From IMG/VR virus record IMGVR_UViG_3300042465_002035, positions 1 through 30,760 of that record: a stretch of 30,760 nucleotides of DNA; one strand, written 5' to 3'. Below are positions 17,380 through 20,091 of this stretch, piece after piece. Source of the stretch: a virus. The notes beneath the pieces are model-generated. The model worked only from the letters and a program-made list of their open reading frames with translations. It made no database searches and was not told the DNA's origin. Position numbers and translations under genes: made by a program. Position 1 is the stretch's first letter; each line of letters begins with the position of its first letter.

Positions 17380-17525
17380 GAGGCCGCAATTTAACAGAAT
17401 ACCAAAAAGAGTTAATTTTTGAAGCCTGGCAAGACCGAAAGCAAATAAAGGTAATTGCTCAAGAAATGGGCCGCTCTTATGCTTGCATTTATTTTCACCT
17501 AAAAAGGCGTTGCTTGGTTGGATAA
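17376..17525 (+). CDS. 49-residue helix-turn-helix micro-protein
   Basis: The protein begins MRGRNLTEYQKELIFEAWQD and continues with an HTH-like IKVIAQEMGRSYACIYFHLK. The ATG overlaps the preceding TGA, so it is coupled to the previous HTH gene. The layout is that of a Hin/resolvase-type DNA-recognition module without a catalytic domain. Its stop overlaps the promoter region of the RNA element that follows, making it an obvious candidate regulator of that element. Confidence 0.65.
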   Translation: MRGRNLTEYQKELIFEAWQDRKQIKVIAQEMGRSYACIYFHLKRRCLVG

Positions 17526-17545
17526 ATTAAAAAGGTTTATATTTG
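17517..17545 (+). promoter_or_regulatory. Promoter of the leader RNA / replication initiator
   Basis: GTTG (17517-17520), a 17-base spacer and TATATTTG (17538-17545), an exact TAnnTTTG -7 box, predict a transcript starting around 17551-17552. That is precisely the first base of hairpin 1 of the RNA element. The same 17-base spacing occurs in the promoter at 19828. Confidence 0.65.
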
Positions 17546-17551
17546 TGTATT

Positions 17552-17640
17552 GAATTATTCCTGAGGTGAGAGGCAAGAATAATTCCCTAGGTTGATACCT
17601 AACCGCCCGACAGACTCTCACCTGTTGGGCTTTTTTATTT
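17552..17640 (+). ncRNA. Three-hairpin leader or small RNA with complementary loops
   Basis: Hairpin 1 is GAATTATTC/GAATAATTC (17552-17560 with 17577-17585; 9 bp, 16-nt loop). Hairpin 2 is TAGGT-TGAT-ACCTA (17588-17601). Hairpin 3 is GCCCGACAG/CTGTTGGGC (17605-17613 with 17622-17630; one G-U pair), followed by TTTTTT. AGGTGAGAG in loop 1 (17564-17572) is perfectly complementary to CTCTCACCT (17615-17623), which is loop 3 plus its closing bases. So either a kissing interaction forms or the upstream strand disrupts the terminator. It is either an attenuator for the replication initiator or an independent RNA of about 85 nt. Confidence 0.75.
17605..17636 (+). terminator. Intrinsic terminator within the leader element
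   Basis: A 9-bp stem with an 8-base loop runs directly into six T. It ends only 7 bases before the start codon of the replication initiator, so if it works constitutively the initiator can be expressed only by read-through or antitermination. Confidence 0.75.
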
Positions 17641-17643
17641 ACA

Positions 17644-18396
17644 ATGAAAAAAGAAGCTTATTACTTTTCGCACGATTCAAACGCGAAAGATGATCCAAAG
17701 ATTTTACAACTACGGATGGAAATGGGTTGGGAGGGTTACGGTCTTTTTTGGGCCGTAATTGAAATGCTCAGGAATGAAAAGGATTTTAGGATGCGAAAGC
17801 ATTACTCAAGCATTGCGTTCGCATTGCAATCGCAAGAGTTTAATATTAGGAATTTAATAAACGATTTTAATTTATTTGAAATTGACGAGGAGTTTTTTTG
17901 GTCTGAAAGCCTTTTAAAGCGTATGGAATTAAAAGAAGAGCGTTCCGAAAAGGCTAGAGAATCGGCCAAGAAACGCTGGAATAAGGATTACGATGCGAAC
18001 GCATTGCCATCGCATAACGATCGCAATGCGGATGCAATGCAATTAAAAGAAAGTAAAGGAAAAGAAATAAAAGAAATTAAAGAAAAAGAAAGTAAAGTAA
18101 ATGAGGATTCACATAATACGATTTTTCGTCAATTATGGAATAATAAGATTTGGCTTGAAGGATTAGCGATAACTTGGAAGGCAGATTTAAAAGAAGTTCA
18201 AGACCATTTAAATACCTTTCGCCAAGAATGTATTTTTAAAGCTGAGTATAAAGAAAATGAAAAGCTTGCCAAAGAGCATTTTTTTAATTGGGTTAAAAGA
18301 GGCAACCCAGTTCCAAAAAAAGAAAGCAAAGGGAAAAACATATTTGACGAACTTTACGAGGATTTGCAAAAACAAAAACAACTAAAAAATGAATGA
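17644..18396 (+). CDS. Replication initiator-like protein (Lin1244/Lin1753 N-terminal domain)
   Basis: The 250-residue protein has an N-terminal domain (about 4-95) like the Lin1244/Lin1753 family: FSHDSNAKDDPKILQLR, GWEGYGLFWAVIEMLR and LFEIDEEFFWSESLLKRM. This domain occurs in phage replication proteins and resembles winged-helix DNA-binding initiators. A low-complexity linker (about 110-158, Asn/Asp/Ala, then Lys/Glu) follows, then a C-terminal helical domain (about 158-230, IWLEGLAITWKADLKEVQDH). The linker DNA carries iteron-like repeats, as in lambda O. No ATPase motif is present. It overlaps the next gene by eight bases. Confidence 0.75.
   Translation: MKKEAYYFSHDSNAKDDPKILQLRMEMGWEGYGLFWAVIEMLRNEKDFRMRKHYSSIAFALQSQEFNIRNLINDFNLFEIDEEFFWSESLLKRMELKEERSEKARESAKKRWNKDYDANALPSHNDRNADAMQLKESKGKEIKEIKEKESKVNEDSHNTIFRQLWNNKIWLEGLAITWKADLKEVQDHLNTFRQECIFKAEYKENEKLAKEHFFNWVKRGNPVPKKESKGKNIFDELYEDLQKQKQLKNE
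17815..17834 (+). repeat. Upstream copy of iteron-like 20-mer
   Basis: The 20-mer beginning GCGTTCGCATTGC matches the one at 17995-18014 at 17 of 20 positions, exactly 180 bases away and in the same frame of the initiator gene. An additional GCATTGCG lies just before it (17810-17817). They encode different protein contexts, so the shared DNA may matter more than the protein. Confidence 0.45.
17995..18105. other. Candidate replication origin inside the initiator gene
   Basis: The dyad CGCATTGC/GCAATGCG (18000-18007 with 18023-18030) has additional symmetric CG pairs inside. A further GCAATGC follows at 18034-18040, an 11-base step from that at 18023. An almost C- and T-poor A/G tract (about 18041-18105) follows, suitable as a melting region. 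The array lies in the linker-coding part of the initiator gene, matching the lambda O/ori arrangement. Confidence 0.55.
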
Positions 18397-19827: not shown

Positions 19828-19856
19828 CTTGGAATCATATCGGAATCCTATATTTG
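19828..19856 (+). promoter_or_regulatory. Promoter with internal direct repeat (likely operator)
   Basis: CTTG (19828-19831), a 17-base spacer and TATATTTG (19849-19856) form a Bacteroidota promoter. Within the spacer GGAATC occurs twice with an 11-base period (19831-19836 and 19842-19847), one helical turn apart. The regulator gene begins 17 bases downstream, so autoregulation by its product is likely. Confidence 0.65.
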
Positions 19857-19872
19857 CCTAAAGATTAAAACG

Positions 19873-20091
19873 ATGAGCATTTACGAGGGATTATTTATAC
19901 GAAAATCACGCAAAGCCGCTGGCTACACGCAGGAGCAATTGGCCGACAAAATAGGACTGTCCTTGGCACCAATTAACCAGGTGGAAAACGGCTGGGAGTC
20001 TATAAGCTTAAACAGACTTAGGCAGATTTGCGAGGCAATTGGATTAGAGGTTGTAATAAAAATTAAAGATGCCAAGAATACCGCCAGTTAA
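19873..20091 (+). CDS. XRE-family transcriptional regulator
   Basis: The 72-residue protein is almost only an XRE/Cro-type HTH: IRKSRKAAGYTQEQLADKIG, a recognition-helix region LSLAPINQVENGW and the third-helix segment LNRLRQICEAIGLEV. It binds DNA as a dimer and probably represses its own promoter at 19828. No partner repressor or integrase is present, so it is not evidence of lysogeny by itself. It overlaps the next gene by 23 bases. Confidence 0.85.
   Translation: MSIYEGLFIRKSRKAAGYTQEQLADKIGLSLAPINQVENGWESISLNRLRQICEAIGLEVVIKIKDAKNTAS

Follow-up and report, generated by a model that had tools for sequence, protein, structure and literature searches.

Complementary loops in a phage leader RNA point to an undescribed switch that times replication and perhaps chooses the rival virus it acts on

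The window analysed here is the whole 30,760-nucleotide (nt) stretch of the record IMGVR_UViG_3300042465_002035, which comes from a virus of Bacteroidota, and the element under study is a compact leader RNA predicted directly 5′ of its replication initiator gene. In this RNA the loop of the first hairpin (loop 1) is complementary to the loop of a third, terminator hairpin (loop 3), and covariation among homologues shows that the loop-1/loop-3 pairing is real. The same architecture and loop pairing are conserved 5′ of unrelated replication genes, and their specificity changes rapidly: hundreds of viruses, relatives and non-relatives alike, retain the loop match though its letters vary. The loop match points to an undescribed RNA switch that times replication and perhaps also chooses the rival virus acted on; the direction of this control and its action in trans are what we infer from these observations.

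The original prediction, made from the letters of the window, had placed here a promoter, three hairpins, a terminator and a 9-nt complement between loops 1 and 3, and direct reading of positions 17538-17643 found all of them exact to the base (Table 1). AGGTGAGAG and CTCTCACCT are perfect complements, and a search of the window for trans targets, that is, for a second exact copy of the loop 9-mer, found none. The fold energy is -28.7 kcal/mol against -18.6 +/- 3.0 kcal/mol for shuffled sequences (z -3.4; 0/200 shuffles as good). From the spacing in F. johnsoniae, whose mapped -7 element occupies -12 to -5 (PMC6847099), transcription is predicted to start at about 17550 and to end at about 17636, giving an RNA of about 87 nt.

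As DNA similarity to the leader and the initiator gene was sought in isolated phages and none was found, relatives were gathered through protein searches and scaffold patterns. A search with the initiator protein gave 78 loci. Their leaders retain the promoter (TAnnTTYG is preserved 5′ of the hairpins), the three hairpins and the T run, and their loops vary jointly. The reading of the element as a putative compact RNA with its own promoter is supported. Group A comprises the loop pairs GTGAGAG/CTCTCAC, GTAGGAG/CTCCTAC, GTGGTAG/CTACCAC, GTGGAAG/CTTCCAC and GTCGGAG/CTCCGAC. Leaders with a diverged scaffold (group B), where hairpin 2 is not preserved as a separate hairpin, carry CTGCGAA, AGTCCAG, AGTCGAG, GTACGAA, GAGCGAA, CTACGAA or GTAGTAG, each with its complement, and a third group 5′ of Lin1244 genes has the short 7-nt loops GTCGCAT, GTCGGAT, GTCAGAT and GTAGGAT. 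Together with promoter and T run, 28 distinct loop pairs of 7-9 base pairs (bp) were verified.

To avoid circularity, elements were located by scaffold patterns blind to the loop letters, and the loops were compared afterwards. At least seven uninterrupted Watson-Crick pairs join the loops in 93 of the 95 distinct elements located in this way (38/38 in group A, 55/57 in group B). The automatic parser alone gave 33/38 and 47/57; its 15 failures were read by eye, and 13 of them proved to be mis-parsed hairpins whose full complement is visible in the printed sequence. The two exceptions have one mismatch each (CTACGAAC with GTTCGCAG in L354; AGTCGAGC with GCTGGACT in the L097 set). Compensatory changes between the loops, the test set beforehand for this pairing, were found in all homologue groups. 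In 14 group B leaders every cell of the kissing helix (100%) is paired, both sides have changed in 6/8 pairs, and for the whole group B structure 0/500 shuffles were as good and all slid versions were beaten too. These pair counts were taken from group B (alignment A2) and from direct parsing because MAFFT alignment A1 displaces the 8-nt loops of alleles GTGGTAG and GTGGAAG by one base. Single-mismatch loop pairs are located in L354 (about 5985, minus strand) and in L097, L174, L079, L425 and L475; they are apparently steps between neighbouring alleles (CTACGAA/CTGCGAA; AGTCGAG/AGTCCAG).

The variety of loops also bears on two further suggestions of the original prediction. Loop 1 had been likened to a Shine-Dalgarno core and loop 3 to its anti-Shine-Dalgarno counterpart; this is rejected, since the loops vary freely to letters that are not Shine-Dalgarno sequences, such as CTGCGAA, AGTCCAG, GTACGAA and GTCGCAT, and since Bacteroidota make no use of Shine-Dalgarno sequences (PMC6847099). 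Opening of the terminator stem by the pairing, one of two outcomes proposed, is likewise not supported as a general rule: many alleles confine the complement to the 7-nt loop and leave the stem untouched.

Table 1. Features of the leader RNA and of the gene that follows it, in window coordinates.
Feature	Position	Strand	Details
Bacteroidota-type promoter	17518..17545	+	-33 element TTG 17518-17520; -7 element TATATTTG 17538-17545; fits TTTG/TAnnTTTG consensus
Hairpin 1	17552..17585	+	5′-most end of predicted transcript; arms GAATTATTC/GAATAATTC (17552-17560/17577-17585), 9 bp, then C.A mismatch and 2 closing bp (inner UG/CA); compensatory changes in homologues
Loop-1 specificity sequence AGGTGAGAG	17564..17572	+	7-nt core GTGAGAG
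Hairpin 2	17588..17601	+	TAGGT-TGAT-ACCTA; 5 bp, TGAT loop; linker joining the kissing hairpins
Hairpin 3, intrinsic terminator stem	17605..17630	+	GCCCGACAG-ACTCTCAC-CTGTTGGGC; 9 bp, 8-nt loop
Loop-3 specificity sequence CTCTCACCT	17615..17623	+	complement of loop 1
T run	17631..17636	+	six T; expected 3′ end of predicted ~87-nt RNA
Lin1244_N replication initiator/replisome organizer	17644..18396	+	first gene of putatively controlled operon; ATG 7 nt past T run; Pfam PF14297 E 3.6e-12; PHROG 2562 replication initiation protein E 4e-22

The leader RNA is present in one copy per genome (25/25 records with a match) and always directly 5′ of the replication operon, with its T run 4-20 nt from the ATG. 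Among the 162 distinct downstream regions examined, which include truncated ones and ones on the opposite strand, the first gene was taken wherever it was readable. This RNA, its loop alleles being shared, precedes Lin1244, DUF6291 and DUF1376-like genes as well as two further organizer-like families without a Pfam match, and HNH or GIY-YIG homing endonuclease genes are inserted exactly between the leader RNA and the initiator in L069, L072, L110-L118, L127-L129, L135, L141 and L408. The promoter and the T-run terminator stay with the hairpins though the first gene is swapped. Since the genes that follow it, replication genes or inserted homing endonucleases, are of at least five non-homologous kinds, the RNA is a property of the replication operon and not of one initiator, and the tie to the Lin1244 initiator in the original prediction turns out to be incidental. 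Bacterial contigs encoding Lin1244 relatives were also scanned for the leader and gave chance-like matches only. The replication organizer genes downstream in L145, L147, L309 and L307 show interchangeable N-terminal families behind one promoter/RNA unit, and the group B organizer variants have similar C-terminal halves, a modular exchange. Just 5′ of the leader, group B phages encode a small protein with a DnaA C-terminal (DNA-binding) domain (L071:2460-2885).

Isolated phages were reached by following DUF6291 relatives, and the same plan, unrelated in sequence, was found 5′ of replication operons in cultured Flavobacterium, Olleya and Cellulophaga phages. The lillamy- and muminviruses, with about 60 nt between T run and first gene, have three alleles: GTGAGACG/CGTCTCAC in tooticki6-1 and relatives, GTGAGAAG/CTTCTCAC in morran9-1, and GTGGAACG/CGTTCCAC in mumin6-1 and snusmum9-1. 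Olleya phage Harreka_1 carries GTGGTGG/CCACCAC, Cellulophaga phi19:3 CTCTCACAA/TTGTGAGAG and Cellulophaga phi18:3 CTTCTGAC/GTCAGAAG, the last read by eye and then confirmed. Phage 11b has the pair CGGGCAGG/CCTGCCCG, putatively also 5′ of such an operon. Of 600 promoter-like sites in cultured phages, a promoter-anchored scan picked out 14 with such a leader, where locally shuffled sequences gave 1.2 on average; one leader, recurring identically in related phages, accounts for 6 of the 14, and a few are chance-like. No leader was recognised in phi40:1 (first 50 kb), 6H, P12024L or the Porphyromonas phage005b region. Flavobacterium phage tooticki6-1 has a second promoter-hairpin-terminator leader (L515:1098-1190) with another kissing pair, GTCGTCG/CGACGAC, directly 5′ of an endonuclease gene, and may thus carry two orthogonal loop pairs.

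The specificity of the loops changes often. On the tree of the initiator gene that follows the leader, group A with its five alleles requires at least 17 changes, and L040 and L043 differ little in their flanks (8% upstream, 2% downstream) and yet strongly in the element itself (34%). In the elemoviruses, whose isolation host was in every case Flavobacterium sp. BAL314, there are two leader alleles, in 4 and 59 records, with the loops GTGAGATG/CATCTCAC or TGAGAGC/GCTCTCA. These alleles differ in the promoter, hairpin 1 and the terminator hairpin, whereas the inter-hairpin linker and both flanks are 98-100% identical. The loops have been replaced as a matched pair with almost no other nearby change. 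Such turnover, with replacement between close flanks, is as expected for a specificity under selection.

We give about an even chance to a combined model in which a self-terminating leader RNA of about 87 nt sets read-through into the replication operon by loop-loop pairing, and the terminated RNA feeds back in trans in an allele-specific way. Because the terminator sits directly 5′ of essential replication genes, some polymerases must pass it. Transcription from the phage's own promoter would yield hairpin 1 first and then terminator hairpin 3 with its complementary loop, so that in cis loop 1 could capture the loop-3 sequence as hairpin 3 emerges. In a crude rod model, a 7-bp kiss between complete stems makes a nearly collinear rod of about 76-93 Å in most cases, a length that the linker cannot reach across in 31 of 47 sequences once hairpin 2 is folded. 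Given this short linker, full loop pairing and the full terminator stem would compete, and part of the polymerases would read through into the replication genes. The terminating polymerases would release a stable RNA of about 87 nt that builds up and pairs in trans, either with new transcripts, where its loop 3 would meet a nascent loop 1 or its loop 1 a nascent loop 3, or with a second free RNA. This pairing would take away the cis competitor and favour termination, a negative feedback made of RNA only, and the outcome would be an early pulse of initiator followed by shut-off. Since the free RNA would recognise a leader only if their loop letters agree, it would also dampen any co-infecting phage that shares the allele, and new alleles would therefore be favoured; such allele-specific recognition would explain the turnover. 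The on/off switch and the small RNA acting in trans, both raised in the original prediction, are both possible. More tentatively, and with rather less than even confidence, we propose a new, widespread RNA class in Bacteroidota phages in which one transcript is both signal and receptor, with 7-9-nt kissing loops, shut-down of the operon on accumulation and exclusion of the same allele, so that in lytic phages the alleles would form RNA-only incompatibility groups on which diversifying selection acts.

Several points weigh against this model. Both the RNA of about 87 nt and the read-through are predictions from sequence. The pairing lies mostly within the loops, so that pairing by itself does not exclude the terminator stem, and the argument for competition depends on the crude rod model. 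The swapping of alleles could partly be ordinary phage mosaicism, and some of the phages searched (phi40:1 in part, 6H, P12024L) lack such a leader. Prophage immunity like that of satellite phage P4 does not apply either, because a PF00589 tyrosine integrase, sought in 30 related records, was not found there and because the cultured lillamy- and muminviruses are lytic (PMC7077304).

The feedback in trans could be dispensed with if loop pairing were confined to a single transcript and served as a timing device, holding the balance between termination and read-through at a fixed or a factor-dependent value. The loops do always share one transcript and covary, promoter, hairpins and terminator are contiguous, and the structure alone is conserved. 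Such an attenuator, however, gives no obvious reason for at least 17 switches among a limited set of alleles or for whole exchange between identical flanks, and the linker strains full kissing in cis; we hold it to be rather unlikely. The RNA might instead work away from the operon, as a free small RNA or as a double-kissing dimer (each copy's loop 1 bound to its partner's loop 3) with other targets or a structural role like that of phi29 pRNA, the site before the replication genes being only the site of its promoter. Its compactness, with a hairpin-capped 5′ end and a terminator at the 3′ end, a geometry that fits a dimer and its persistence when the first gene is exchanged would suit this role. 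A free RNA gene could sit anywhere, however, whereas this one is constantly placed immediately before the operon, close to the start codon, and its loop sequence has no other copy in the window, which makes this explanation improbable. Control of translation, with the folded leader hiding or exposing the start region of the first gene, is less probable still. The AUG does follow shortly after the T run, and structure near the start reduces translation in Flavobacterium (PMC6847099), but there would be no need for a strong terminator with its T run, the same RNA is followed by HNH and GIY-YIG start regions and by five more, and the spacer to the first gene in lillamy- and muminviruses is long. 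A chance complement in an ordinary promoter joined to the terminator of an upstream operon, both parts being common in phages, has a negligible probability, as it is contradicted by the compensatory loop changes in many groups and by the excess of cultured-phage leaders over shuffled promoters.

That the element belongs to no recognised RNA family, as the original prediction had it, was borne out by Rfam: its 4227 models, including C4, pRNA and ctRNA, gave no gathering-threshold match in the window, and the leaders from eight representative sources had no match even at E<=1. A published description of the leader RNA was sought in the full-text literature, subscription journals and preprints being outside its scope, and none was found. 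The functionally nearest systems are the P4 CI RNA and also plasmid kissing-loop control; the leader RNA is a member of neither but would resemble a single-transcript version of them. In ColE1, loop-loop recognition of about 7 bp between RNAI and RNAII controls the initiation of replication, and its letters differ between relatives and set incompatibility. Kissing loops of about 7 nt with changeable specificity are likewise present in the leader RNA, but the partner in ColE1 is an opposite-strand countertranscript and its target a primer RNA, whereas the leader RNA has its two loops on a single strand and transcript. In pT181 and pIP501 an antisense RNA attenuates the rep mRNA, and kissing hairpins decide on terminator formation 5′ of the replication-initiator gene; the leader RNA, unlike these, has no antisense RNA gene, and its antagonist would be the terminated leader itself. 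An antisense promoter (TTG-N15-24-TAnnTTTG on the minus strand) was found in only 3 of 147 distinct leaders, and countertranscript control of the pT181/ColE1 type was rejected. The right and left loops of phi29 pRNA are mutually complementary, covary among relatives and permit intermolecular pairing; this is another case of complementary loops on one phage RNA, but pRNA builds the packaging motor, whereas the leader RNA has a terminator and sits 5′ of replication genes.

The CI RNA of satellite phage P4 pairs with seqA and seqC in the leader from which it derives and, by ending transcription prematurely, silences the replication genes of P4 (PMC4825925). Like it and the c4 antisense RNA of P1/P7, the element studied here is a short RNA from the leader of a replication operon, complementary to leader sites involved in termination, with loop 1 matching the terminator loop in every group. 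P4 CI, however, is processed from a longer transcript, acts in lysogeny and has its partners outside itself, whereas here a single self-terminating unit of 87 nt supplies both partners as its loops, its phages seem to be lytic, and there is no sequence or Rfam match. Lysogenic immunity of the P4 type was rejected on the integrase search and the lytic habit of the cultured carriers given above. As for other kinds of leader, no block of conserved unpaired bases, as in a riboswitch, was seen in A1/A2. Some short open reading frame occurs in 125 of 147 leaders; inspection by eye shows the frame that opens in homologues ending after only two codons in the window, and other frames disrupted by loop alleles.

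Little has been described of how lytic Bacteroidota phages are regulated, and a defined, single-copy, strongly covarying RNA is now known directly 5′ of the replication operon in many such phages, some of them cultured on lab-grown Flavobacterium and Cellulophaga strains. The elemoviruses of one host strain, which differ locally almost only in the leader RNA, are a natural experiment on allele-specific exclusion between lytic phages. The self-paired loop alleles would supply orthogonal RNA switches of transcription, and the model of the element finds homologues where sequence search fails.

Some minor features accompany the element. In groups A and B, hairpin 1 is frequently weakened two pairs beneath its kissing loop, at 17561 and 17576 in the window, by a mismatch or a weak pair (C.A, G.A, A.A, A.C, U-A), possibly a bend or a protein site. 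Other scaffolds 5′ of Lin1244-type or early genes (L068:2860-3000, L157:1623-1717, L138, L142, L236, L246) show long complements between an upstream segment and a terminator-like loop, the longest being the 12 nt of GTTAGAGCTACA in L157. Finally, a further well-formed TTG...TATATTTG promoter lies at 19829-19856 of the window, directly 5′ of a small Cro/CI-like regulator gene (19873-20091).
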